From Halomonas organivorans (GTDB lineage: Bacteria; Pseudomonadota; Gammaproteobacteria; Pseudomonadales; Halomonadaceae), in NCBI RefSeq assembly GCF_014192055.1, contig NZ_JACHXM010000005.1, positions 39,935 to 103,934 on the forward strand: a stretch of 64,000 nucleotides of DNA, given 5' to 3'. A program made the position numbers and the translations under genes. Of this stretch, positions 41,258-61,245 are shown piece by piece. Numbering within the stretch: position 1 is the stretch's first letter; each line of letters opens with the position of its first letter. The notes below the pieces were generated by a model. That model worked only from the letters and a program-made list of their open reading frames with translations, did not search any database and had not been told where the DNA came from.

Positions 41258-42328
41258 TTACTGCAGGGCGGATGCACGGTCCGCGGCGACGCGCTCGGCG
41301 GCGCGGTCGCGGGCGGCCTCGAGTTCGCTCAGGAACTCCTGGCCCTGCTCGCCGTAGTTCTCCAGGTACCAGTCGCGAATCGGCGCGGCATAGCTGCGAA
41401 ACTGCTCCATCTCCTCCTCGGTGGGCGTATAGAGTTCCCCGCCCGACTCCCGCCATGCCGCGTACGCCTCGAGCTCCTTGCGCGGTTGCATGCCGAACTG
41501 CACCACCCCCATCAGTGCGGCAGCGTCGGCCACGACGCGCTGCTGCTCGGCGCTCAGAGACTCGAACTTCTGGTTGCCCATCAGCCACATCGACGCCATG
41601 TAGGCATGCCCATCCAGGGTGATGTACTTGAGCACCTCCTGGAAGTTCATGTTGGTGATGTCGGAGATCGAATTCTTGGTGCCGTCGACCACGCCGGTCT
41701 GCAGCCCGGTGTAGACCTCGAGCCAGGGCAGGGGCGTGGGGGAACCGCCCATTTCCCGCACCAGCCGCTGCTGGATCTCGGACTCGATGGTGCGAAAGCG
41801 CAGTCCCTCGACGTCCGCCGGCGAGCGGATCTCGTGCTCGGCGTTGGCGAAGTTTCGCCAGCCGCCGGTCTGGGTCATGGTCATCAGGCGGATGCCGCCG
41901 CCGGTGGACTCGAGGATCTCGCCGCGCAGGTAGTCGGTGAGTTCGGGGTCGGAGAGCATGCCCATGGCGGTGCGGTCGTCAGGGAAGGTGTAGGGGATGT
42001 CCATGCCCTGGATCGGCGGATAGATGCCGGCGACGCCGCCCGCGGTGGCGGTGAACAGGTCGACGATGCCGGCCTGCATGGCCTCGAAGCACTCGTTCGC
42101 CGAGCCGCACAGCTGGGGACCGACGAAGATGTTGACGTTGACCTCGCCGCCGGTGCGGCTCTCCACGTAGTTCTCGAAGACCTGGGCGGCGTCATACTCT
42201 TCGTCCTGCTCGTTGGCCAGCAGGACCAGGTTGAGGTCCACGGCGTGAGCCGCTGAGGCGGCGCCGAGGGTGGAGGCAAGCAGCACGGCGCGGGCGATGC
42301 CTGACGGCTTGAAGCTGGGGGTTTTCAT
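41258..42328 (-). CDS. TRAP transporter solute-binding protein (DctP), probable SQ/SQ-glycoside receptor
   Basis: 356-residue periplasmic receptor of a TRAP transporter. The signal peptide ends AHA-VDLNL. The DctP pattern is present: LRFRTIESEIQQRL, with the Arg that usually binds a substrate acid group, and EVYTGLQTGVVDGTKNSI. Two Cys (in QLCGSANECF) may form a disulfide. Third gene of the dctQ-dctM-dctP operon, whose promoter carries the same palindromic operator as the sulfo-ED operon; substrate assignment as sulfoquinovose or its glycoside is inference from context. Confidence 0.85.
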   Translation of the reverse strand: MKTPSFKPSGIARAVLLASTLGAASAAHAVDLNLVLLANEQDEEYDAAQVFENYVESRTGGEVNVNIFVGPQLCGSANECFEAMQAGIVDLFTATAGGVAGIYPPIQGMDIPYTFPDDRTAMGMLSDPELTDYLRGEILESTGGGIRLMTMTQTGGWRNFANAEHEIRSPADVEGLRFRTIESEIQQRLVREMGGSPTPLPWLEVYTGLQTGVVDGTKNSISDITNMNFQEVLKYITLDGHAYMASMWLMGNQKFESLSAEQQRVVADAAALMGVVQFGMQPRKELEAYAAWRESGGELYTPTEEEMEQFRSYAAPIRDWYLENYGEQGQEFLSELEAARDRAAERVAADRASALQ

Positions 42329-42380
42329 TGTTGTGACCTCTTGGCGTGATGGATGAGTGGTGAGTGGTGCGTCGTTGGCG

Positions 42381-43670
42381 CTAGGCGACGTAGCCAAAGG
42401 CGCGTGGAATGGCGAGCACCAGGTCCGGCACATAAACCAGGGCGAACAGGATGCCGATCTCGACCAGGAACAGCGGCAGCATTTCCCAGGCAATCTTCTC
42501 GATTTTCTCGTTGCTGATGCTGCCGACCACGAACAGCACCAGGCCCATGGGCGGCGTGATCAGGCCCATGATCAGCGTCACGCTCATGACGACCGCAAAG
42601 TGGATCGGGTCGACGCCGACGCCGACCATGACCGGCGACAGGATCGGGCCGAGAATCAGGATGGCGGGGCCGGCATCCATGATGGTGCCGATGCCGAGCA
42701 GGAAGATGACGACCAGGAAGAACAGCAGGGCGGGATCGTCGGTGATGCCGAGGATGAAGCCGCTGACCAGCTGCGGCGTCCCCTTGAGGCTGACCAGTGA
42801 AGCAAAGGCGACGGCCGCGCCGACCAGCAGCAGCACCACTGCCGAGCTGAGCGCCGCCTTGCCGAACAGGGCCGGCAGGTCGCCAAGCTTGAGGTCGCGG
42901 GTCACGAACAGCCCGAGAATCAGAGCATAGAAGGCGGCGATGGCCGCACCTTCGGTGGGCGTGAAGATGCCGCCCACGATGCCGCCGATCAGGATCACCG
43001 GCGTCAGCAGGGGCATGAAGGCGGCGACGAACGCCTGCCACTTCTGGCGCCAGCTCGCCTTGGGCAGCGGCTCCGGAAATTCCTTGAAGCGGGTCATCAC
43101 CGAGATGGCGATCATCAGGCCGACACCGATCAGGATGCCGGGCACGATGCCGCCGGCGAACATCCCGGCGACCGAGACGTTCATGATGAAGGCATAGAGG
43201 ATGAAGATGCCGCTCGGCGGGATGATGCTGGCGATCACCGCCGAGGCGGCCGTCACCGCCGCCGAGAAGCGATTGGTGTAGCCCGACGACTTCATGGCCG
43301 GAATCATCACCGAGCCCAGCGCCGAGGCGTCCGCCACCGCCGAGCCGGAACCGCCGGCCAGCATCAGCGAGGAGGATACCGACACCTGACCCAGGCCGGC
43401 ACGGCGGTGGCCGATCAGGGTCTCGGCGAAGCGCACGATGCGCGAGGTGACCCCGCCGGCCGTCATCAGCTCGCCGGCCAGGATGAAGAAGGGCAGCGCC
43501 ATCAGCGGGAAGCTGTCGATGCCCGCGAACAGGCGCTGGAACAGCAGGTCGAGGAACATGACCTTGCCTTCCAGCACCAGGCTGATGCCCGGCGCGATCA
43601 GCATCAGAAAGACGATCGGCATGCCGGCGATCAGCAGCCCCGCGAAGATCCACAGATAGGCGAATGTCAT
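42381..43670 (-). CDS. TRAP transporter large permease subunit (DctM)
   Basis: 429-residue, about 12-TM permease that couples Na+ or H+ flow to uptake of the ligand delivered by DctP. Motifs: FPLMALPFFILAGELM, GGSGSAVADASALGSVMIPAM and IPPSGIFILYAF, then the late LIMGLITPPMGLVLFVV. Encoded between DctQ and DctP, 3 bp after DctQ. Probable sulfoquinovose import by location and shared operator. Confidence 0.93.
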   Translation of the reverse strand: MTFAYLWIFAGLLIAGMPIVFLMLIAPGISLVLEGKVMFLDLLFQRLFAGIDSFPLMALPFFILAGELMTAGGVTSRIVRFAETLIGHRRAGLGQVSVSSSLMLAGGSGSAVADASALGSVMIPAMKSSGYTNRFSAAVTAASAVIASIIPPSGIFILYAFIMNVSVAGMFAGGIVPGILIGVGLMIAISVMTRFKEFPEPLPKASWRQKWQAFVAAFMPLLTPVILIGGIVGGIFTPTEGAAIAAFYALILGLFVTRDLKLGDLPALFGKAALSSAVVLLLVGAAVAFASLVSLKGTPQLVSGFILGITDDPALLFFLVVIFLLGIGTIMDAGPAILILGPILSPVMVGVGVDPIHFAVVMSVTLIMGLITPPMGLVLFVVGSISNEKIEKIAWEMLPLFLVEIGILFALVYVPDLVLAIPRAFGYVA

Positions 43671-43673
43671 GGT

Positions 43674-44219
43674 TCAGGCCTCCGCCTGGCGATGGTCGGG
43701 GTCCTGATCGCCGGCCGCGGCCTGCGGTGAGATCAGGGCATGAGCCGCGCGCAGCAGGCGCTCCAGGGAACACAGCGCGGTGAGGGCGAAGCTGAGAGGC
43801 AGCACGTAGTAGACCTGGGCCATGGGGATGCCAAGGGCCAGGCTCTGGGTGGTGGCGCCGCGCTCGATGCGGTCGAAGCCGAGCTGGATGCACCAGACGA
43901 GGGCGGCGAGGATGGCGGCCTCGATCAGTAGCTGCAGCAGCTGCCAGGGGCGGGAACCCCTGAACCATTCGGTGCACAGGTCGAGGCTTACGTTGAGCCC
44001 TTTCTTGTGGGCGGCCGGGAAGTACAGGAAGGCCATCCACACCATCATGTAGCGCGAGAGTTCCTCGGTCCAACCGAAGCTATCGCCCAGGGCGTAGCGA
44101 TAGACGACGTGAACGATCATCACGGCCAGCATGGCGGCCAGCAGCAGCGTTGCCGCGTGACCCGCCCAGCGCGTCGTCAGCCGGTTGAGGCGATCGAGGA
44201 AGGATACGAGCGTTGGCAT
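43674..44219 (-). CDS. TRAP transporter small membrane subunit (DctQ)
   Basis: 181-residue four-TM subunit that partners DctM. Features: VIVHVVYRYALGDSFGWTEELSRYMMVWMAFL, HKKGLNVSLDL and the C-terminal YYVLPLSFALTALCSLERLL. First gene of the TRAP operon. The ATG at 44219 is chosen, since longer in-frame starts would translate the promoter and operator (44314-44359). Confidence 0.9.
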   Translation of the reverse strand: MPTLVSFLDRLNRLTTRWAGHAATLLLAAMLAVMIVHVVYRYALGDSFGWTEELSRYMMVWMAFLYFPAAHKKGLNVSLDLCTEWFRGSRPWQLLQLLIEAAILAALVWCIQLGFDRIERGATTQSLALGIPMAQVYYVLPLSFALTALCSLERLLRAAHALISPQAAAGDQDPDHRQAEA

Positions 44220-44313: not shown

Positions 44314-44359
44314 TTTCGCAGCGCTACGAAATAGTAGGTATGCCCCAGGGGAGTGTCAA
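44314..44359 (-). promoter_or_regulatory. TRAP-operon promoter and LacI-type operator
   Basis: On the minus strand TTGACA (44354-44359), 17 bp, TACTAT (44331-44336) is a near-consensus sigma-70 promoter. The operator TTTCGTAGCGCTGCGAAA (44314-44331, minus-strand reading) begins on the last base of the -10 box, where a bound repressor would cover the start site. It lies in the 366-bp divergent region 44220-44585, which holds no gene. Confidence 0.8.
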
Positions 44360-44495: not shown

Positions 44496-44541
44496 TTGAC
44501 ACCGGGCCGGCGCTGACACAGTATTTCGTAGCGCTACGATT
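44496..44541 (+). promoter_or_regulatory. Sulfo-ED operon promoter and LacI-type operator
   Basis: TTGACA (44496-44501), 17 bp, CAGTAT (44519-44524) forms the promoter. The palindrome TTTCGTAGCGCTACGATT (44524-44541) starts on the last base of the -10 box, exactly as in the divergent TRAP promoter. The mRNA leader to the start at 44586 is short. The LacI protein at 54107-55162 is the obvious candidate repressor. Confidence 0.82.
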
Positions 44542-44585
44542 TTCGTCGCCATGGAGGCCATGGCGAGTCACCGAGAGGCAAGATG

Positions 44586-46316
44586 ATGAACAAGGACCGA
44601 CGCACCATCGACCAGCTGCGCAGTCAGCGCTGGTACAGTTCCCCGGACATGCGCGGCTTCGCACACCGGCAGCGCACCCAGCAGATGGGGCTGCGTCGCG
44701 AGGAGTTCATGGGCAAGCCGGTGGTCGGCATCCTCAACACCTGGAGCGAGCTGAGCCCCTGCCATGCGCACCTGCGGGATCGGGCCGATGCGGTCAAGCG
44801 TGCGGTGTGGGCCGCCGGCGGCTTTCCGGTGGAGCTGCCGGCGATGTCGCTCGGTGAGGTGATGGTCAAGCCGACCACCATGCTGTATCGCAATTTCCTG
44901 GCGATGGAGGCCGAGGAACTGCTGCGCTCGCACCCCCTCGATGGCGTGGTGCTGCTGGGCGGCTGCGACAAGACCACGCCGGGGCTGCTGATGGGCGCCA
45001 TCAGCATGGATATTCCGGCGATCTTCTGTCCCGCGGGACCGATGCTCAACGGCAAGTGGAAGGGCAAGACCCTGGGCGCCGGCACCCACACTCGCAAGTA
45101 CTGGGACGAGCTGCGCAGCGGCAACATCACCCAGGACGAGTGGGTGGACCTCGAGTCGCGCATGACCCGCTCCAACGGCACCTGCAACACCATGGGCACG
45201 GCCTCCACCATGACCTCCATCGTCGATGCCATGGGCCTGACCCTACCCGGCGCCTCGAGCATTCCGGCGGCGGATTCCGGCCACACCCGCATGGCCTCCG
45301 AGTGCGGCTCGCGCATCGTCGAGATGATCTGGGAGGACCTCAAGCCCTCCGACTTCCTGACCCGCGAGAGCTTCCTCAATGGCGCGCGCTGCTACATGGC
45401 CATGGGCGGCTCCACCAATGCCGCCGTGCATCTGATCGCCCTGGCGCGGCGGGCCAACGTGACGCTGACCCTCGACGACCTGGACGCCGTGGCCCGCCAG
45501 GTTCCGGTGCTCGCCAATATCTTTCCCTCGGGCGAGTACCTGATGGAGGACTTCTTCTACGCCGGGGGGCTGCCGGCGCTGCTCAAGCGGCTCGAAGGCC
45601 AGCTGGCGCTCGAGGCCCGTGGCATCTCCGGCAAGGCGCTGGGCGAATGGATCGCCCCGGCGGAGTGTTACGACGACGACGTCATTCGCCCCTTCGACCG
45701 GCCGGTCACGCCGGGCGCGGCCCTGGCCGTGCTGCGCGGCAACCTGGCGCCCAACGGGGCGGTCATCAAGGCCAGCGCGGCGAATCCGGAGCTGGCCCGA
45801 CATCGCGGCCGTGCCGTGGTCTTCGACAACCATGCGGACCTGGTGGCGCGCATCGACGATCCGGCCCTCGACATCACCGCCGACTCGGTGCTGGTGCTGC
45901 GCAATGCCGGGCCCAAGGGGGCGCCGGGGATGCCCGAATGGGGCGCGCTGCCGATTCCCAAGAAGCTCCTGGCCCAGGGCGTCCGCGACATGCTGCGCAT
46001 CTCGGATGCGCGCATGAGCGGCACGCATTACGGGACCTGCGTGCTGCACGTGGCGCCCGAGTCCTCGGTAGGCGGCCCGCTGGCACTGGTGCGCGATGGC
46101 GACGAGATCGAGCTGGACATCGAGGCCCGTCGTCTCGAGCTGTGCGTCGAGCCGAGCGTGCTCGAGGCGCGGCGCGAGGCCTGGCGAGCCCCGAGCCCGC
46201 GGATCGATCGCGGCTACACCGCGATCTTCCAGGAGCATGTGACCCAGGCCGATCAGGGATGCGATTTCGACATCCTCCAGAACGGTCAACGACAAGACGA
46301 ACCCGAAATCTTCTGA
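44586..46316 (+). CDS. IlvD/Edd-family dehydratase, probable 6-deoxy-6-sulfogluconate dehydratase
   Basis: 576-residue Fe-S dehydratase. Cys59, Cys127 and Cys200 (SPCHAH, GGCDKTTPG, NGTCNTMG) are the cluster ligands of the IlvD/Edd family; DMRGFAHRQRTQQMGL is typical of the sugar-acid branch. In a sulfo-ED pathway it would dehydrate 6-deoxy-6-sulfogluconate to KDSG. The family alone also fits arabinonate or xylonate dehydratases; the assignment rests on the GH31 sulfoquinovosidase and neighbours. The ATG at 44586 has GAGAGG 7 bp upstream; ATG 44583 is too close. First gene of the eight-gene operon. Confidence 0.82.
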   Translation: MNKDRRTIDQLRSQRWYSSPDMRGFAHRQRTQQMGLRREEFMGKPVVGILNTWSELSPCHAHLRDRADAVKRAVWAAGGFPVELPAMSLGEVMVKPTTMLYRNFLAMEAEELLRSHPLDGVVLLGGCDKTTPGLLMGAISMDIPAIFCPAGPMLNGKWKGKTLGAGTHTRKYWDELRSGNITQDEWVDLESRMTRSNGTCNTMGTASTMTSIVDAMGLTLPGASSIPAADSGHTRMASECGSRIVEMIWEDLKPSDFLTRESFLNGARCYMAMGGSTNAAVHLIALARRANVTLTLDDLDAVARQVPVLANIFPSGEYLMEDFFYAGGLPALLKRLEGQLALEARGISGKALGEWIAPAECYDDDVIRPFDRPVTPGAALAVLRGNLAPNGAVIKASAANPELARHRGRAVVFDNHADLVARIDDPALDITADSVLVLRNAGPKGAPGMPEWGALPIPKKLLAQGVRDMLRISDARMSGTHYGTCVLHVAPESSVGGPLALVRDGDEIELDIEARRLELCVEPSVLEARREAWRAPSPRIDRGYTAIFQEHVTQADQGCDFDILQNGQRQDEPEIF

Positions 46317-46325
46317 GGTGACGAC

Positions 46326-47123
46326 ATGACGCTTCCCGTGAACCGCTTCAAGCAGTGGCTGGGCGAGTCCAGGGTACCGGTGGGGACCTGGCTGATGACC
46401 GCGAGTCCCAACGTGGCCGAGGCCATCGGCTTCGCCGGCTTCGACTATGTGGTGCTCGACATGGAGCACGTGCCGGTCGACGTGCCCCAGGCCATGGCCA
46501 TCATGCAGGCCGTGGCCGGCACGCCGGCGGAGCTGGTGGTGCGCCTGCCCTGGAACGATCCGGTGATGGTCAAGCGGATGCTGGACAGCGGGGCCCAGAC
46601 GCTGATGTTCCCCTACATCCAGAACGCCGAGGAGGCGCGCCAGGCGGTGGCTTCCACCCGCTATCCCGGGCGCGGCTTCCGAGGGGTGGCGGCGGTGCAC
46701 CGCGCCAGCCGCTACGGTACCGTCAAGCGTTACCTCCAGGAGGCCGATCGCGAGATCGGCGTGATCCTGCAGCTCGAGACGCCGGAGGCGCTAGCGGTCC
46801 TGCCGGAGATCGCCGAGGTGGACGACGTCGATGCCGTGTTCGTCGGACCGGGGGACCTTTCCGCCGCCATGGACCATATCGGTGATATTCGTCACCCGGA
46901 GGTCCAGGAGGCGATCGCTGGGGCCGTGGCGGCCTGTCGGGCCCGTGACCTGCCGTGCGGCATCGTCGGCGCCGACCCGGCGCTGGTCGGCGAGTACATC
47001 GCCAAGGGATTCGCCTTCGTGGCCATCGGCTCCGACATGAGCCTGATGATGTCCCGGGCCCAGGAATACCTCGCCGCCGTGCGCGGCGAGAGCGCCGCCA
47101 CCGAGAACAGCGGCGTCTATTGA
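46326..47123 (+). CDS. HpcH/HpaI-family aldolase, probable KDSG aldolase
   Basis: 265-residue class II, metal-dependent aldolase: VGTWLMTASPNVAEAIGFAGFDYVVLDMEHVPVD, RLPWNDPVMVKRMLDSGAQTLMFP, ILQLETPEAL and VFVGPGDLSAAM with the metal-binding Glu/Asp. It would cleave 2-keto-3,6-dideoxy-6-sulfogluconate to pyruvate and 3-sulfolactaldehyde. HpcH-type aldolases are broad, so the substrate is inferred from the operon. 9 bp after the dehydratase. Confidence 0.8.
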   Translation: MTLPVNRFKQWLGESRVPVGTWLMTASPNVAEAIGFAGFDYVVLDMEHVPVDVPQAMAIMQAVAGTPAELVVRLPWNDPVMVKRMLDSGAQTLMFPYIQNAEEARQAVASTRYPGRGFRGVAAVHRASRYGTVKRYLQEADREIGVILQLETPEALAVLPEIAEVDDVDAVFVGPGDLSAAMDHIGDIRHPEVQEAIAGAVAACRARDLPCGIVGADPALVGEYIAKGFAFVAIGSDMSLMMSRAQEYLAAVRGESAATENSGVY

Positions 47124-47125
47124 GC

Positions 47126-48006
47126 ATGGTCGAGACCCTCTCGCTGTCGTCGCCTCCCTGGCGTCTCTGCCTGGTGCCGTCCCTGGGCGGGGCCGTGTCG
47201 AGTCTCGGCCTGGCGGGGCGTGACGTGCTGCGGCCCCTGGAGGCCGAGCGGGCCGCAGCCGCCGAGGCGGTACGCCACAGCGGCGGCTACATGCTGGCGC
47301 CGTATTCCAATCGCATCGCCGACGCCGGTTTTACCTGGCAGGGCGAGAGGGTGCGGCTGGCGCGCAACTTCGGCGATCACCCCCACAGCCTGCACGGGTT
47401 CGCCTGGCAGCGCGCCTGGGCGGTGGAAGACCGGGACGTCAACGCCGCGAGCCTGGTGCTGGACCATCCCGGCGATGCCGACTGGCCCTGGCGCTGCCGG
47501 CTTCGCCAGAGCTGGCGGCTTGATGGTCGTCGCGTCAGCCTGGCGCTCGAGGTCGAGAACCGCGACGACCGGGACATGCCGGCGGGGCTTGGCTGGCACC
47601 CCTATTTCCTGCGCGATGGACTCGACATGGCGTTTCGCTGCGAGGGCGTGTGGCTGAGCGACGCCCGCCAGCTCCCGGAGCGTCATGTGCCCGTTCCCGC
47701 CGACTGGGACTACAGCGTCCGCCGCCCGGTGGGGGCGCCGGGCCTGGATCACTGCTTCACCGGCTGGGCGCGGGAGGCGCGACTGGCCTGGCCGTCGCGC
47801 GGCATCGCCGTGACCCTGACGGCCTGCGAAGCGTTGTCCCACCTGGTGGTATTCACCCCGGAAGAAAGCGACGTCGTCGGCATCGAGCCGGTCAGCCACG
47901 CCAACGATGCCCTCAACATGGCCGATCCGGCTGCGGCAGGAGTGCGTCACCTGGCGCCCGGCGAGCGGCTGGTCGGCCACATTCACCTGACAGGCGAGAT
48001 CACATC

Positions 48007-48010
<4 letters not shown>
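47126..48010 (+). CDS. Aldose 1-epimerase, probable sulfoquinovose mutarotase
   Basis: 294-residue galactose-mutarotase-fold protein. The conserved features are SNRIADAGF near residue 61, the general-acid His90 (HSLHGFAW), the second His158 in GLGWHPYF and the late Glu in VVGIEPVSHAND. It would equilibrate alpha-SQ, the product of the sulfoquinovosidase, with the beta anomer used by the dehydrogenase; SQ mutarotases are known in other sulfoglycolytic clusters. 2 bp after the aldolase and overlapping the lactonase start (ATGA). Confidence 0.83.
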
Positions 48011-51152
<3,142 letters not shown>

Positions 51153-51237
51153 GCCTTGCGTTCCGGGGGCATGCCTTCGGAACGCATGCCCGCTGTTGCC
51201 CATCGCTTCTTTTCCTCTTCACCAACGGGACACCATC

Positions 51238-53265
51238 ATGATGCGCGTCATCCCCGAGTCGCACGCCGTCAGCCTCTATCGCGGCGACGCCCTGCTGTTT
51301 CGTCATAGTGCCGAGGCGCCGGCGATCCACGTCGGTCGCGGCCAGGCCCGCTTCGACATGTACCGGGGCAACTTCGAGATCGAGGACTATCTCGAGGCCC
51401 GCGAACCCTTGAGGCACCTGGAGGTGCTGGCGGAGGGCGATGGCCATCGCCTGGCCTTTCGGCGCCACGCCGACGACGCCCTGCAGCTCGAGCTGCGGCT
51501 CGAGACCCGCGGAGATGGCGCGACCCTGACCACCCTCTATGCCGCTCCGGGCATCAACCGTACCTGGTGGCGGCTGGCCGCCGAGCAGGGCGAGCATGTC
51601 TGGGGCTGCGGCGAACAGATGTCCTACCTGGATCTGCGCGGTCGCCATTTCCCGCTGTGGACCTCCGAGCCCGGCGTCGGCCGCGACAAGAGCACCTACG
51701 TCACCTGGCGTTCGGACGTCGAGAATCGCGCCGGCGGGGACTATTACCACACCAACTATCCCCAGCCGACCTTCCTGTCGTCGCGCTACTATGCCTGCCA
51801 CGTGGAAACCAGCAGCTACGCTGACTTCGACTTCCGCCACGAGGACTTTCACGAACTGCAGGTCTGGGCGGTGCCGGAGCGCCTCGAGCTGTTCGCCGCG
51901 CCAAGCTACCTGGCACTGGTCGAGACGCTCGGCGCCCGGTTCGGCCATCAGCCACGGCTGCCCGAGTGGGTCTACGACGGGGTCATCCTGGGCCTCAAGC
52001 GCGGCAAGGCGCATGCGGAAGAAAAACTCGACCAGGCGCTGTCCGCCGACATGGCCGTCTCGGCGCTGTGGTGCGAGGACTGGGCGGGGATTCGCGAGAC
52101 CAGCTTCGGCGCGCGGCTATTCTGGGACTGGAAGGCCTCCGAGAGCCGCTATCCGGACCTGGCCGGCTGGTGCCGCGAGCTGGGCGAGCGGGGCATTCGC
52201 TTCCTGGGCTACGTGAATCCCTATCTGTGCGTGGACGGCGAGCTCTACCCGGTGGCTCGCGACCGCGGCTACCTGGCCACCGATGGCCAGGGCGGGCCGG
52301 CCATCGTCGATTTCGGCGAATTCGACTGCGGCGTGGTGGATTTCACCAGCCCCGACGCCTGCGCCTGGTTCAAGGACGTCATCCTCAAGGCCAACATGCT
52401 CGACATCGGCATCAGCGGCTGGATGGCGGATTTCGGCGAGTACCTGCCCGTGGACGTGGCGCTTGCCAACGGCGTCTCGGCGGAGGTCGAGCACAACCGC
52501 TGGCCGACGCGCTGGGCCAGGGTCAATGCCGAGGCGGTGGCGGAGCGTGACAAGACCGCCGACGCCACCTTCTTCATGCGCGCCGGCTACACCGGCGTGC
52601 AGGCCCATTGCCCGCTGCTGTGGGGCGGCGACCAGTCGGTGGACTTCTCCCGTCACGACGGCATCGGCACGGTGATCACCGCGGCGCTGTCGTCGGGCCT
52701 GGTGGGCAATGCCTTCCATCACAGCGACATCGGCGGCTACACCAGCCTGTTCGGCAACGTGCGCAGCGCCGAGCTGTTCAAGCGCTGGGTGGACCTGGCC
52801 GCCTTCACGCCGGTGATGCGCACCCACGAGTGCAATCGACCCGGCGACAACCTGCAGTGGTTCGACAGCGCCGAGCTGACCCAACACCTGGCGCACATGA
52901 GCCGGGTCTATCGCCATCTTGCCCCCTATCTCAAGGCGCAGGTCGAGGAGGGTGCCGAACGGGGCATTCCGGTACAGCGTCCGCTGTTCCTGCACTTCGA
53001 GGGCGACCCCGAGGCCTATGCCACCCAGACCCAGTATCTCTACGGCCCGGACCTGCTGGTGGCGCCGGTGGTCGAGGAGGGCGTCGAGGCACGTGACGTC
53101 TACCTGCCGGCCGGCGAGACCTGGGTCCACCTGTGGAGCGGCGCCGTCGAGGCGGGTGGCCGCCGACTGCAGGTGGCCGCGCCGGATGGTCGTCCCCCGG
53201 TGTTCTTCCGGCAAGAGAGTGCCTGGCGAGGGCTCTTCGAGTCCGTGCCGGGGCGCGATGGATGA
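51238..53265 (+). CDS. yihQ: GH31 sulfoquinovosidase (YihQ type)
   Basis: 675-residue family 31 glycoside hydrolase; the length and the whole architecture match E. coli YihQ. It cleaves alpha-sulfoquinovosides such as SQ-glycerol to SQ and the aglycone. The nucleophile Asp398 (GWMADFGEYLP) and the acid/base Asp465 (WGGDQSVD) are in place. The residues that recognise the sulfonate in E. coli (Arg301, Trp304, Tyr508) correspond to Arg293, Trp296 (FGARLFWDW) and Tyr501 (SDIGGYTSLF). No signal peptide, so it acts in the cytoplasm on imported glycoside. ATG 51238 has GGGA upstream; ATG 51241 is the alternative. Confidence 0.93.
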   Translation: MMRVIPESHAVSLYRGDALLFRHSAEAPAIHVGRGQARFDMYRGNFEIEDYLEAREPLRHLEVLAEGDGHRLAFRRHADDALQLELRLETRGDGATLTTLYAAPGINRTWWRLAAEQGEHVWGCGEQMSYLDLRGRHFPLWTSEPGVGRDKSTYVTWRSDVENRAGGDYYHTNYPQPTFLSSRYYACHVETSSYADFDFRHEDFHELQVWAVPERLELFAAPSYLALVETLGARFGHQPRLPEWVYDGVILGLKRGKAHAEEKLDQALSADMAVSALWCEDWAGIRETSFGARLFWDWKASESRYPDLAGWCRELGERGIRFLGYVNPYLCVDGELYPVARDRGYLATDGQGGPAIVDFGEFDCGVVDFTSPDACAWFKDVILKANMLDIGISGWMADFGEYLPVDVALANGVSAEVEHNRWPTRWARVNAEAVAERDKTADATFFMRAGYTGVQAHCPLLWGGDQSVDFSRHDGIGTVITAALSSGLVGNAFHHSDIGGYTSLFGNVRSAELFKRWVDLAAFTPVMRTHECNRPGDNLQWFDSAELTQHLAHMSRVYRHLAPYLKAQVEEGAERGIPVQRPLFLHFEGDPEAYATQTQYLYGPDLLVAPVVEEGVEARDVYLPAGETWVHLWSGAVEAGGRRLQVAAPDGRPPVFFRQESAWRGLFESVPGRDG

Positions 53266-54011
53266 GCCTGCTGGAGCACCTGCCACTGCTGCTGGTGGTG
53301 GCGCTGGCGACCTACGCCCAGACCGTCACCGGCTTCGCCTTCGGCCTGATCTTCATGGCCGGGGTCGTGATGTTCGGCATTGCTCCGGTGGCGATGGGCG
53401 CCATCCTGATCAGCATCCTCAGCCTGTTCAACTGTGCGGTGGCCCTTTACGGCAAACGTGCCACCCTGGATCGCCGGGTCGTGCTGATCAGTGCTGCGAG
53501 CGGGATGGTCACCGTGTTCCTGGGCGTCCTGGCGCTGGACGCCCTGAGCGGCGAATACGTGGGCTGGCTGCAGGTGATTCTCGGCGTGGCCATCATCCTC
53601 AGCAGCCTGATCCTGGTGCGCCACCCCAGGCCGCGGCGCGAGCGCTCCTCGAACTGGAGCTTCGCGCTGTTCGGTGGACTGTCGGGATTCATGGGCGGCA
53701 TGTTCTCGACCTCGGGGCCGCCCATGGTGTTCCAGCTCTACCGCCAGCCGCTGGCGCCCGCGGTCATTCGCGACTGCCTGCTGTTGATCTTTGCCATCAA
53801 CAGCCTCCAGCGTCTGGCGATCGTGGCGGTTCAGGGCGCGCTCGAGCTCGAGGTGCTGGGACTGGCCGCCGCCGCGATCCCGGTGGTGGTGCTGTTCACC
53901 TGGCTGGGGCGCCGGTACCCGCCGCCGCTATCGCCGCGCAGCCTGCGGCGCGTCGCCTTCCTCCTGCTGATGGGATCGGGCGTCAGCCTGTGCCTGTCGG
54001 GACTCGGCTGA
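53262..54011 (+). CDS. TauE/SafE-family exporter, probable sulfolactate exporter
   Basis: 249-residue, eight-TM protein of the TauE/SafE (DUF81) family, which exports sulfur-containing anions such as sulfite and sulfoacetate. Two halves are visible: YAQTVTGFAFGLIFMAGV and GGLSGFMGGMFSTSGPPMVFQLY. Because the cluster has no sulfolactate-degrading enzymes, it probably exports 3-sulfolactate. It overlaps the GH31 stop (ATGA) and ends the operon. Confidence 0.85.
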   Translation: MSLLEHLPLLLVVALATYAQTVTGFAFGLIFMAGVVMFGIAPVAMGAILISILSLFNCAVALYGKRATLDRRVVLISAASGMVTVFLGVLALDALSGEYVGWLQVILGVAIILSSLILVRHPRPRRERSSNWSFALFGGLSGFMGGMFSTSGPPMVFQLYRQPLAPAVIRDCLLLIFAINSLQRLAIVAVQGALELEVLGLAAAAIPVVVLFTWLGRRYPPPLSPRSLRRVAFLLLMGSGVSLCLSGLG

Positions 54012-54106: not shown

Positions 54107-55162
54107 TCAGGAGGTGGCCAGCCCGATTCGCCGGGTCGAGCTTTCCCGCACCAGAAGCTCGAAGCCGAGATCGATCGAGGTCTCGACGGTGTTGCCCTGC
54201 AGGCGGTCGAGCAGGGCGACGGCGATCCTGTCGCCGATTTCCTCGCGGGGCGGACGGACCGTCGAGATGGCCGGTACGCAGCAGTTGCTGAAGTCCATGT
54301 CACCGAAGCCCACCAGCGCAATGTCCTCGGGGATGCGCACGCCCTGGGCCTGCGCCTGGGCGATGGCCCCCAGGGCCAGGACGTCGTTCGAGAACACGAT
54401 GCCGTCCACGTCCGGCTGCTCGGCGAGCAGCGTACGCAGCGCTTCACGAGCGGCTTCGGCCATGCGGCCGGTGCCGGTGTCGATGATCCGGCAATCGGCG
54501 CTGCCGAGCAGGTCCCGACAGGCGGTCCTGACGCCGGTGGCCCGCAGCTGGGCGCGGTTGTCGACGCTCAGCCGAGCGCCGATGAAGGCCAGGCGTCGAC
54601 AGCCCGATTCGATGAGATGACGCGCCTGGGCTCGTCCGACGTCCTCGTGGGAAAAGCCGATCATGGTGTCCAGGGCATTGGAGCCCAGCTCCCACATCTC
54701 CACCACCGGAATCGCGGAGCTGGTCAGGATGCGGCGCGTCTCTCGGGTGTGCTGAAGCCCGGTGAGCACCATGGCGCTGGGCGACCAGGACATGAAGGTG
54801 CGCACCAGCGACTCCTCCTGCTGCTCGGAGTACTCGCTGTGACCGAGCAGCAACTGGTAGCCGTGGCGGCTCAGGGACAGCTGCATGCGGCTGACGGTCG
54901 AGGCGAACATGGAATTGACCATGGACGGCACGACGACACCGATCACCCGGGTCTTGGCCGCGGCCAGCGCGCCCGCCATCAGGTTGGGCACATAGCCCAG
55001 GGTGTCGATGGCCTCCTGGATGCGGCGGCCCAGGGTGTCGGACACTTCGTCGGGACGGCGCAGGTAGAGCGACACCGTGCTGGCCGAGACGCCGGAAAGC
55101 TTGGCGACGTCCGTCATGGTCACGCGCTTGGTGCTGCGTCGGGAGCGCTGTTGGCTGCTCAT
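54107..55162 (-). CDS. LacI-family regulator, probable repressor of the sulfo-ED regulon
   Basis: 351-residue LacI/GalR protein. The N-terminal helix-turn-helix reads MTDVAKLSGVSASTVSLYLRRPDEVS with the minor-groove hinge GYVPNLMAGAL, followed by a periplasmic-binding-protein-like sensor (GVVVPSMVNSMFASTV, GCRRLAFIGARLS, VFSNDVLALGA, IALVGFGD). The likely operator, TTTCGTAGCGCTACGAAA, occurs at the TRAP and sulfo-ED promoters and twice before the porin. The inducer may be SQ or a pathway intermediate. No such site lies before its own start. Confidence 0.87.
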   Translation of the reverse strand: MSSQQRSRRSTKRVTMTDVAKLSGVSASTVSLYLRRPDEVSDTLGRRIQEAIDTLGYVPNLMAGALAAAKTRVIGVVVPSMVNSMFASTVSRMQLSLSRHGYQLLLGHSEYSEQQEESLVRTFMSWSPSAMVLTGLQHTRETRRILTSSAIPVVEMWELGSNALDTMIGFSHEDVGRAQARHLIESGCRRLAFIGARLSVDNRAQLRATGVRTACRDLLGSADCRIIDTGTGRMAEAAREALRTLLAEQPDVDGIVFSNDVLALGAIAQAQAQGVRIPEDIALVGFGDMDFSNCCVPAISTVRPPREEIGDRIAVALLDRLQGNTVETSIDLGFELLVRESSTRRIGLATS

Positions 55163-55372: not shown

Positions 55373-56946
<1,574 letters not shown>

Positions 56947-57110: not shown

Positions 57111-58610
57111 TCAGACGGCCAGGGCCTGTCGCCTGGCGTGCATGTAGGACGTGAGTCGGATGACCTGCTGCTCGGTGAGGCGCAGGGCCAGCTTGGTGCG
57201 GCGCCAGAGAATGTCCTGGGGCTCGCGGGCCCATTCATGTTCCACCAGGTAGTCCACCTCGGCGGCGGACAGGCCGGCGCCGAAGTCCTCGCCGAGTTCA
57301 TGGCGTGACGACTTGCCGGCCAGGAACCGATGGCACAGCGAGCCGTAGGTGCGGGCGAAGCGTCGCGCCTGGTCGGCTGTCAGGAAGGGGTAGTCGGTCT
57401 CCAGGCGGCGACGAAACGTCTCCTGGTCGCCGATATCGCCGCCCGGCAGCGGGGCGTTTGCCGTCCAGGCGGGTTTCATGGCAGGCAGGTGCGGCGCAAG
57501 GCTCGCCAGCGCGGCCTCGGCGAGCTTGCGATAGGTGGTGATCTTGCCGCCGAACACCGACAGCAGCGGGGCGCCATGGGTGTCGAGATCCAGCGTGTAG
57601 TCGCGGGTCATGGCCGAGGGATCGGCAGACTCGTCATCGCATAGCGGACGCACGCCGGAGAAGGTGCGAATGACATCGTCGCGCGTCAGCGGGGTGGTGA
57701 AGTGGTCGTTAACGACGTCCAGCAGGTAGGCGATCTCCTCCTCGCTGGCCTCGACTCGAGCGGGGTCTCCCTGGTAGCGGCGATCGGTGGTGCCGATCAG
57801 GCTGAAGTCCTCTTCGTAGGGCAGTACGAAGACGATCCGCTTGTCGGTGTTCTGCAGGATGAAGGCACGCTCGTCGCCGTTGCGCCTCGGCACGATGATG
57901 TGGCTGCCCTGGATCATGCGCACGCCGTAGCGGGAAGCGCGGGGCGTCATGCCGCGAATGACGCTGTCCACCCAGGGGCCGGAGGCGTTGACCAGCGAGC
58001 GGGCGTGGCGGGTCAGGCGCATGCCGCTGGCCACGTCTTCCAGATCGATTTCCCAGTGCCCGTCGACCTCGCGGGCGCCGACGCAGCGCGTGCCCACCAG
58101 GACCTCGGCGCCGGACTCGCTGGCCTGAATGGCGTTGAGGACCACCAGACGAGCGTCGTCCACCCAGCAGTCCGAGTATTCGAAGCCCCGCGACAGGTCG
58201 GGCGACAGGCCCAGTTCCGGTGCCAGGCGCAGCCCCCGGGAGGCGGGCAGGCGACGACGCTTGCCGAGGTGGTCGTAGAGAAACAGCCCGGCGCGCAGCA
58301 TCCAGGCAGGGCGGAGATGCGAGCGGTGGGGCAGCACGAAGCGCAGCGGCCAGATGATATGGGGCGCCTTGGCGAGCAGCGTCTCGCGCTCGCGCAGGGC
58401 TTCGCGGACCAGGCGGAACTCGTGGTGCTCCAGGTAGCGCAGACCGCCATGAATCAGCTTGCTGCTGGCCGAGGAGGTGGCGCTGGCCAGGTCGGCCTGT
58501 TCGCAAAGGCCGACCGAGAGGCCGCGTCCGGCGGCATCGGCGGCAATGCCGGCGCCATTGATGCCGCCGCCGATCACGAAGAGGTCCAGGATATCGGAAG
58601 AAGTCGCCAT
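57111..58610 (-). CDS. glpD: Aerobic glycerol-3-phosphate dehydrogenase
   Basis: 499-residue FAD enzyme on the inner membrane that oxidises sn-glycerol 3-phosphate to dihydroxyacetone phosphate and passes electrons to quinone. The FAD motif is DLFVIGGGINGAGIAADAAGRGL, then SSASSKLIHGGLRYLEHHEF, with VNASGPW and the C-terminal domain of the DAO family. Together with glpK and glpR it forms a glycerol module beside the sulfoquinovose cluster; glycerol is released from SQ-glycerol. Confidence 0.96.
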   Translation of the reverse strand: MATSSDILDLFVIGGGINGAGIAADAAGRGLSVGLCEQADLASATSSASSKLIHGGLRYLEHHEFRLVREALRERETLLAKAPHIIWPLRFVLPHRSHLRPAWMLRAGLFLYDHLGKRRRLPASRGLRLAPELGLSPDLSRGFEYSDCWVDDARLVVLNAIQASESGAEVLVGTRCVGAREVDGHWEIDLEDVASGMRLTRHARSLVNASGPWVDSVIRGMTPRASRYGVRMIQGSHIIVPRRNGDERAFILQNTDKRIVFVLPYEEDFSLIGTTDRRYQGDPARVEASEEEIAYLLDVVNDHFTTPLTRDDVIRTFSGVRPLCDDESADPSAMTRDYTLDLDTHGAPLLSVFGGKITTYRKLAEAALASLAPHLPAMKPAWTANAPLPGGDIGDQETFRRRLETDYPFLTADQARRFARTYGSLCHRFLAGKSSRHELGEDFGAGLSAAEVDYLVEHEWAREPQDILWRRTKLALRLTEQQVIRLTSYMHARRQALAV

Positions 58611-58682
58611 GTCACGCTCCGGTGGGCACTGGGCCGTGTGGGGATGATGTCGATGATGTTGGAAAGCGAAAATAGATTATTT

Positions 58683-58694
58683 GAAAACGAACAT
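58683..58694. promoter_or_regulatory. Candidate GlpR half-site upstream of glpD
   Basis: On the minus strand ATGTTCGTTTTC resembles the E. coli GlpR half-site. A second copy, ATGTTCATTTAC, is at 59671-59682 before glpK. The full dyad is not clear, so confidence is low. Confidence 0.4.
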
Positions 58695-58766
58695 CAAGCG
58701 GCAAGGCGTTCCCGCCGGGCAGGAACGACACGAAATGGCGCGCCGGGCGGGAGGAGAGAAAGAGGG

Positions 58767-59525
58767 TCAGGCGAGGTGCAGGGCGACGTCGTGCTCGCGT
58801 AGCAGTTCCTGGATGCGCTCGGAGGGCTGGCGGTCGGTGAACAGGGCGTCGAGCTGCGCGAGATTGCCCTGGCGAACGACCGGGTTGCGCTGGAACTTCG
58901 AGTGGTCGGCGGCCAGGAAGACCTGGCGAGAGTTGTGAATGATCGCCTGGGCGACGCGCACTTCCTGATAGTCGAATTCCAGCAGCGAGCCGTCTTCATC
59001 GATACCGCTGATGCCGATGACGCCGAAATCGACCTTGAACTGGTTGATGAAGTCGATGGTCGCCTCGCCGATGATGCCGCCGTCGCGGGAGCGGACCTGG
59101 CCGCCGGCGACGATCACGTTGAAGTCTTCCTTGCGCTGGAGGATGGCGGCCACGTTGAGGTTGTTGGTGATCACCTCGAGGCCCTGGTGGTCGAGCAGGG
59201 CCTCGGCCACCACTTCGTTGCTGGTGCCGATGTTGATGAACAGCGAGGCGTGGTCGGGAATGTGGCGGGCGAGTAGCGTCGCGATGCGCTGCTTGGCCTC
59301 CAGGTTGAGGCTCTTGCGCATCGAATAGGCGGTGTTGACCGTGCTCGACTCGAGGCCGGCGCCGCCGTGAACGCGCCTGAGCTGGCCGTCGCCGGAGAGC
59401 CGGTTGAGGTCTCGGCGAATCGTCTGGGGCGTCACCGCAAAATGTTCGGTGAGCTGCTCGATGCTGGCGTAGCCCTGGCGGCGAACGAGCTCGACGATGC
59501 TGTCTTGGCGCTGCTGTGGGGTCAT
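58767..59525 (-). CDS. glpR: DeoR-family glycerol-3-phosphate regulon repressor
   Basis: 252-residue DeoR-type repressor. The N-terminal HTH is [34 protein letters not shown]; the sensor half has the family signatures [34 protein letters not shown] and [20 protein letters not shown], close to E. coli GlpR. The inducer is glycerol 3-phosphate. It lies between the glpD and glpK genes, 156 bp upstream of glpD. Confidence 0.94.
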
Positions 59526-59670
59526 GCTAACTCCTTGATGACGCTGATTCTACGACATCAGTCTATGCCATGCAGGGTAGATTCTCGGACATTTCATTAG
59601 ACCAAAGTCTTGGGTTAGGGCCCGGCGTGTCAATTGAGAGAGGTGGCCGACTCGCGTACTCTTTGTGATC

Positions 59671-59682
59671 GTAAATGAACAT
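59671..59682. promoter_or_regulatory. Candidate GlpR half-site upstream of glpK
   Basis: Minus-strand ATGTTCATTTAC, related to the site before glpD, in the 211-bp divergent region between glpR and glpK. Confidence 0.35.
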
Positions 59683-59736
59683 TTTGGTTGCACAAGCGAA
59701 ACTCGTCGCCATAACCACAACTCCAGGATGCTTGCC

Positions 59737-61245
<1,509 letters not shown>

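Follow-up and report, generated by a model that had tools for sequence, protein, structure and literature searches.

A TRAP transporter group linked to sulfoquinovose gene clusters and its predicted role in a sulfo-ED regulon of Halomonas organivorans

The DNA analyzed here (the window, 64 000 nt from Halomonas organivorans) carries a GH31 gene whose product was proposed, from the sequence read by eye, to be a sulfoquinovosidase (SQase) akin to E. coli YihQ. The locus raises two questions: does the enzyme, together with its neighbors, serve the use of sulfoquinovose (SQ), a sugar of plant lipids, and by which transporter would such a substrate enter the cell? SQ production is estimated at 10 billion tonnes a year in the excerpts of PMC12890257. 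Import of SQ is described as often ABC-mediated in passages of PMC12133307, and ABC import is named for SQ in parts of PMC12421959 and PMC11659671 as well. The genes divergent from the operon of the window encode a transporter of another type, a complete TRAP set.

The GH31 enzyme and its sulfonate pocket

The open reading frame at 51238–53265 (+ strand) encodes a protein of 675 aa, the sole PF01055 match in its own 4.8-Mb genome. Its alignment with the YihQ translation of E. coli K-12 MG1655 gives 47.6% identity over 668 positions. The residue pairs D398/D405, D465/D472, R293/R301, W296/W304 and Y501/Y508 (window/YihQ) given in the original prediction are exact, with the offsets of 7–8 right, and the alignment places no other residues at the Arg, Trp and Tyr positions. 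The further claim that the full sulfonate-recognition set of YihQ is kept holds for R293, W296 and Y501 and fails for Q262 and Q288, since the Gln pair at these YihQ positions (Q/Q) is absent from the window protein, which has K254 and E280 (K/E). Both YihQ positions are reportedly described as part of the sulfonate pocket by Abayakoon in 2018. In alignments with PDB entries, the K/E pair is found in the Agrobacterium SQase 5ohy and the Q/Q pair in the E. coli entries 5aed, 8r56 and 6pnr. Judged by these alignments, the sulfonate pocket follows the K/E type of Agrobacterium and is no copy of that of YihQ. The term ‘QQRWY’ was not found in the literature searched.

We compared 83 SQases (the window protein, YihQ, those of 80 loci and one second copy). 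The K/E pocket was present in 78 and the Q/Q pocket in 5, counts that reflect the choice of the 80 loci by likeness to the window GH31 protein, with one search peptide, WCEDWAGI, including the pocket Glu. The Arg, Trp and Tyr had been put forward as residues distinguishing SQases from ordinary alpha-glucosidases and alpha-xylosidases. In combination they do so (83/83 SQases, 0/7 other GH31 sequences), while singly they are less telling: Trp at the W304 column also occurs in YicI, and Arg at the R301 column in six GH31 neighbors aligned as BLAST fragments of 27–32% identity. These second, distant GH31 proteins near an SQase (27–32%; loci L009, L010, L043, L050, L061 and L062) have Phe at the pocket-Tyr column, and their substrate may be a different glycoside.

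According to their entry titles, the six top-scoring distinct PDB sequences (717.8–908.8 bits) are all SQases; the first GH31 enzyme of another kind in the ranking scores 143.3 bits, leaving the best SQase ahead by 765 bits. NCBIfam model NF007746/PRK10426, which we take to be the YihQ model, is matched with 920.7 bits (cut-off 553). The predicted fold aligns with nine SQase entries at Z of 48.6–50.6, and the next entry follows at 37.4; the predicted model has a mean pLDDT of 85.1, with values below 50 at residues 139–150, 165–175, 465–469 and 471–474, so that D465 lies inside a weak stretch. The Agrobacterium tumefaciens SQase (5ohs, 5ohy, 7ofx) shares with the window enzyme, besides the K/E pair, 56% identity over 645–655 aligned residues, with rmsd of 1.8–1.9 and Z of about 50. 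Residues, closest PDB relatives and fold taken together, the GH31 protein is therefore an SQase. As seen in alignments and the predicted model, it is an ordinary one of the Agrobacterium type; the enzyme itself is a further member of a known family. Its closest SQase relatives, from Halomonas beimenensis, H. smyrnensis and Modicisalibacter coralii, are 86–89% identical to it, and the two Halomonas species named also have the cluster. An Opitutaceae MAG (L036) has two K/E-type GH31 SQases on one contig (296–2221 and 10001–12007), with identities of 56 and 58%.

A sulfo-ED operon, its neighbors and putative operators

The SQase gene stands in an operon at 44583–54011 (+ strand) that starts with an IlvD/Edd dehydratase gene (44583–46316, PF00920), the proposed sulfogluconate dehydratase of step 3. 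An HpcH/HpaI aldolase (46326–47123, PF03328; proposed KDSG aldolase, step 4) and an aldose 1-epimerase (47126–48010, PF01263; candidate SQ mutarotase) come next, followed by an SMP-30 type lactonase (48007–48888; PF08450, 289.4 bits), which would perform step 2. The aldehyde dehydrogenase encoded at 48925–50370 (TIGR01780, 695.4 bits, cut-off 646.35) is proposed to turn sulfolactaldehyde into sulfolactate (step 5), and the SDR encoded at 50382–51152 would be the sulfoquinovose 1-dehydrogenase of step 1. Downstream of the SQase gene, a TauE/SafE permease gene (53262–54011, PF01925), whose start overlaps the SQase stop codon, encodes a candidate sulfolactate exporter.

All five sulfo-ED families (SDR, SMP-30, PF00920, PF03328 and aldehyde dehydrogenase) are thus present in one operon. 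The same five-step enzyme set is given for sulfo-ED in section 3.2 of PMC12890257, as excerpted, and is shared with the pathways of Pseudomonas putida SQ1 and Rhizobium leguminosarum. By gene content, the operon is the sulfo-ED set, predicted to convert SQ into pyruvate and sulfolactate. The role of the dehydratase rests on context because this protein passes the NCBIfam cut-off for L-arabinonate dehydratase. The SDR has the sulfoquinovose 1-dehydrogenase 9gwu as its best PDB match (332.6 bits; next 245.6), and its best NCBIfam model is D-xylose 1-dehydrogenase, with a score under the cut-off of that model. Calling the GH31 gene the anchor of the operon's function was well founded: the enzyme is an SQase by PDB relatives and fold, and it sits among sulfo-ED genes. 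Synteny of the cluster extends over Halomonas, Modicisalibacter and Natronospirillum.

Divergent from the operon, on the − strand, is the complete TRAP set (41258–44219): binding protein DctP (41258–42328; PF03480, with NF037995 over its cut-off), large permease DctM (42381–43670; TIGR00786 over cut-off) and small permease DctQ (43674–44219; PF04290 over cut-off). DctP stays under the NCBIfam TIGR00787 cut-off (159.1 versus 175.05). The presence of TRAP genes sets the locus apart from the closest known SQ systems. The K/E-type Agrobacterium SQase has a counterpart here within a sulfo-ED operon with TRAP, whereas the E. coli yihQ operon has YihS–YihV and the putative SQ transporter YihO. For known sulfo-ED pathways ABC transporters are implicated in SQ uptake, according to passages of PMC12421959, and a Pseudomonas locus (L045) has a symporter-like ORF, named by eye.

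Beyond the operon lie, on the − strand, a gene for a LacI/GntR-like regulator (54107–55162; PF00356 and PF13377, with GntR as the best NCBIfam model, below cut-off), the proposed repressor of the cluster, and one for a LamB-type porin (55373–56851; PF02264, 299 bits). The glycerol-use genes GlpD, GlpR and GlpK (57111–61245) adjoin the porin gene; the same Glp neighbors occur in L003 and L053, and GlpD/GlpR in L004. Matches to GlpD or GlpK fall inside the fetched stretch of 18 of the 80 SQase loci, a number that has no background count beside it. As glycerol would be the second product of SQ-glycerol cleavage, the adjoining Glp genes fit SQ-glycerol as the natural substrate.

A palindrome of the TCGTAGCGCTACGA type lies directly after the −10 box at both divergent promoters in all six clusters examined (the window, L003–L006 and L053). 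In the window, the TRAP promoter TTGACA-17-TACTAT (44331–44359, − strand) has a one-mismatch operator candidate directly downstream of its −10 box (44316–44329), and the catabolic promoter TTGACA-17-CAGTAT (44496–44524, + strand) has a perfect palindrome in the same place (44526–44539). Two more candidate operators, one with a single mismatch (56904–56917) and one perfect (56931–56944), are located upstream of LamB. Each promoter in the six divergent regions shows the order TTGACA, spacer, −10-like box, palindrome; this pattern was drawn up after the regions had been seen and is not strict at the −10 box. A repressor bound to a palindrome in this place would be expected to block transcription.

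The window has six palindrome matches with up to two mismatches versus 0.15 expected. With at most one mismatch allowed, four of the five sites in the own genome, and 38 of the 42 in nine other SQase genomes, belong to the SQ cluster; the other four of the 42 are one repeated variant in a single genome (G234). The palindrome is not specific to SQ clusters: among 275 genomes of the family, 97 have at least one site at this threshold, including 87 of the 265 that lack an SQase. One of the own sites, with one mismatch, is outside the window (C5:110138, L099) and precedes an ABC transporter operon, presumably for glycerol judging from gene order, and then a second GlpD-like gene, which scores below the NCBIfam cut-off. 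We rejected a wider regulon via this site: the nine other SQase genomes have no such site with up to one mismatch, and the same form occurs in an SQase-negative genome (G068).

Linkage of the DctP group to SQ genes

The TRAP genes are part of the SQ system. Their divergent arrangement was found in five of the 80 SQase loci (L003–L006 and L053). A probe search of these five sister loci gave no match to an ABC, symporter or YihO-type SQ importer; such probes do match at many other SQase loci, and at some no probe matches (for ABC and symporter, the probes were ORFs named by eye). TRAP genes also occur in a sulfo-EMP cluster of Pasteurella testudinis (L048) with YihS, T, U, V and an SQase, and DctM/DctP match more weakly in L010. 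At the family level, SQase and DctP are each present in 10 of 275 genomes, and these are the same ten genomes, the own one included.

A DctP-only search was designed to test the linkage without choosing genomes by SQase. At the class level (369 genomes, E 1e-70), it produced three DctP relatives besides the own one, in genomes G325, G568 and G441. The DctP genes of G325 and G568 adjoin flavin-reductase-like and aldo/keto-reductase-like genes, a sulfo-SMO-like setting. The luciferase-like monooxygenase of G325 is, among its best six matches, 73–76% identical to ones near SQases in Agrobacterium/Neorhizobium loci. A neighboring protein has the GH188 SQases 8qc2 and 8qc3 (SqgA; PMC10755693) among its best solved relatives, its top PDB match being 8zn9, titled only ‘oxidoreductase’. 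For G568 the contig (L142) ends before a monooxygenase gene, and a search of the genome at E 1e-100 revealed no such gene. Among the four genomes of the family to which G325 belongs, DctP is present in three, the monooxygenase in three and both in two. The DctP gene of G441 (L140) adjoins a gene for a PfkB kinase whose nearest match is sulfofructose kinase 7ag6; this kinase is the one link to SQ there and is suggestive only.

At the phylum level (398 genomes), a profile built from six DctPs added 17 matches, spread over 16 genomes and all with E 1e-137 or better, and all 17 adjoin SQ-type genes (L174 and L175 among them come from near-identical genomes and have identical DctP). Nine loci have SmoC-, SmoB- and SmoA-like genes along with a GH188-like gene; one has GH188- and SmoB-like genes with a TauD dioxygenase; in two, GH188-like and sulfofructose-kinase-like genes are found. 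Sulfo-ED genes are present in one locus and YihS, YihU and YihV in two. The last two loci have a GH31 SQase at 53%, accompanied in one of them by a TauD dioxygenase and an aldo/keto reductase. The names SmoA, SmoB, SmoC and sulfo-SDO are applied to the clusters around the DctP relatives as probable labels; the data behind them are similarity to genes near Agrobacterium/Neorhizobium GH31 SQases, one PDB match and Pfam families.

In the DctP tree, a branch with 100/100 support separates the 32 linked DctPs from 27 others, taken from the 36 further DctPs in the own genome; this outgroup represents one genome only and has no known DHPS or isethionate binders. Twelve of the 32 were reached via SQase or operon, which makes their link one of selection, and 20 via DctP alone. 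Residues C74, C80, W157, D223 and M244 are present in 32/32 linked DctPs and in 0/27 others.

Predicted substrate of the TRAP system

What do the clusters around this DctP group have in common? In the excerpts of PMC12890257, SQ pathways with C–S cleavage yield glucose and sulfite and those with C–C cleavage yield sulfolactate or DHPS. The product types differ between clusters, which leaves SQ and its glycosides as the common compounds; for this reason, the TRAP system is best read as importing SQ or SQ-glycerol. On gene linkage and sequence, SQ or its glycosides are the most likely substrates of import by the system. We also consider it likely that a distinct TRAP group, recognized by DctP motifs C74-x5-C80, G155-G-W157-R158 and Y243-M244, is a dedicated SQ/SQ-glycoside importer common to sulfo-ED, sulfo-EMP, sulfo-SMO and probably sulfo-SDO clusters of Gammaproteobacteria and of one or more further classes in the phylum.

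Residues of DctP are consistent with such a ligand. In the available part of PMC11668362, two Arg and one Asn of IseP from Oleidesulfovibrio alaskensis, a binding protein of the same TRAP family, grip the sulfonate group of isethionate. By the alignment with 4P47, counted by hand with the numbering of that paper, these residues correspond to R158, R179 and N219 of the window DctP, and all three are present in the 32 linked DctPs. The Arg/Arg/Asn grip would fit an SQ ligand and is no proof of it, as carboxylates are bound likewise. W202 of the window protein is a further feature we list. A point against is that the acidic residue at 4P47 position 76 is replaced by alanine. IseP differs in having a C2 substrate; the signature C74-x5-C80, W157, D223 and M244 marks the group to which the window DctP belongs. 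The predicted DctP model is poor (mean pLDDT 47) and was left out of the evidence.

A different proposal would have the TRAP system carry a downstream sulfonate, sulfolactate or DHPS, with SQ entering by other means. It draws on Taurinivorans muris, where the putative sulfolactate importer is a TRAP transporter (passages of PMC10507020), and on the TRAP system that carries isethionate (excerpts of PMC11668362). We regard it as unlikely: the same DctP group stands by sulfo-SMO-like clusters in nine of the 17 phylum loci, and sulfo-SMO is said in PMC12890257, as excerpted, to release glucose and sulfite, so that no C3 sulfonate is expected there. The empty probe searches of the five sister loci also speak against another route of SQ entry. 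As to a SuyB-type outlet for sulfolactate, the single match in the own genome to PF20629, which we take to cover SuyB, is a galactarate dehydratase (contig C44, L100); no SuyB-like gene was recognized in that genome and this candidate was dropped. The galactarate dehydratase gene is accompanied by genes for glucarate-type enzymes and a tricarboxylate-type transporter (named by eye), and the group is a hexarate cluster, not SuyAB.

The sugar itself could be another one. An ED-like pathway for sulfofucose (6-sulfogalactose) uses related dehydrogenase, lactonase and aldolase families according to parts of PMC12421959, which would suit an operon for this or another sulfosugar. In the same excerpts, however, that pathway relies on a PF13378/PF02746 dehydratase and is linked with import of the ABC type, whereas the window dehydratase is of PF00920 as in sulfo-ED; with the SDR nearest to SQ dehydrogenase and the glycosidase nearest to SQases, degradation of a sulfosugar other than SQ is very unlikely. 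NCBIfam names, with the dehydratase over and the SDR below cut-off, might even point to a non-sulfonated sugar-acid operon of arabinonate/xylonate type with an ordinary alpha-glucosidase. Given that the sulfonate pocket has its R, W and Y together and that the best SQase is so far ahead of any other GH31 enzyme in bits, we find this scarcely credible.

The preferred reading, import of SQ or its glycosides by TRAP, can be put together with the remaining genes. Computation establishes the SQase residues and fold, the gene families, the palindromes and promoter-like sequences common to the clusters, and the constant association of this DctP group with SQ genes; from these we infer the DctP ligand, transport direction, repressor, inducer and single-enzyme roles as follows. 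The LamB-type porin would pass the substrate across the outer membrane; DctP would capture SQ or SQ-glycerol, its anionic end gripped by R158, R179 and N219, and DctQ/DctM would carry it inward. In the cytoplasm, the GH31 enzyme would cleave alpha-SQ-glycosides by a retaining mechanism, with D398 as nucleophile and D465 as acid/base. SQ would then be oxidized, hydrolyzed, dehydrated and split into pyruvate and sulfolactaldehyde; oxidation of the latter would give sulfolactate, which the TauE protein would export. The LacI-type protein would repress TRAP, catabolic operon and porin jointly by means of the palindromes directly after the −10 boxes. As a whole, such an inducible SQ utilization regulon (TRAP import, SQase, sulfo-ED, TauE export and LacI-type control) is in our view likely.

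The SQase is of a known kind; the pairing of its operon with a probable TRAP importer, recurring by several SQ pathways, appears to be the new part. In the literature searched, with most papers judged by title and others available in part, no text tying a TRAP transporter to sulfoquinovose was found; earlier notice, for example in the work on Roseobacter SQ use cited in PMC11131964, is possible. In the SQ-related passages of PMC11659671, PMC12133307, PMC6278857, PMC12421959, PMC11968277 and PMC10507020, ‘TRAP’ refers to instruments or, in the last of these, to the putative sulfolactate importer. If one TRAP group acts alike across the pathways, the DctP signature would find SQ users with differing enzymes and would reach genomes where the gene is named merely a dicarboxylate-type TRAP transporter; SQ would join the list of TRAP substrates. 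The SQ-importer reading predicts a clear outcome for a single binding experiment.

Genome G971 has two DctPs of the group ∼36 kb apart (L180 and L183), one by a GH31 SQase and one in a YihS/U/V cluster. Locus L140 of G441 contains, besides the DctP and PfkB genes, a GntR-like regulator gene, two GFO/IDH/MocA genes by Pfam and a third by similarity, and a TonB-receptor-like ORF named by eye; it could represent a further SQ route.
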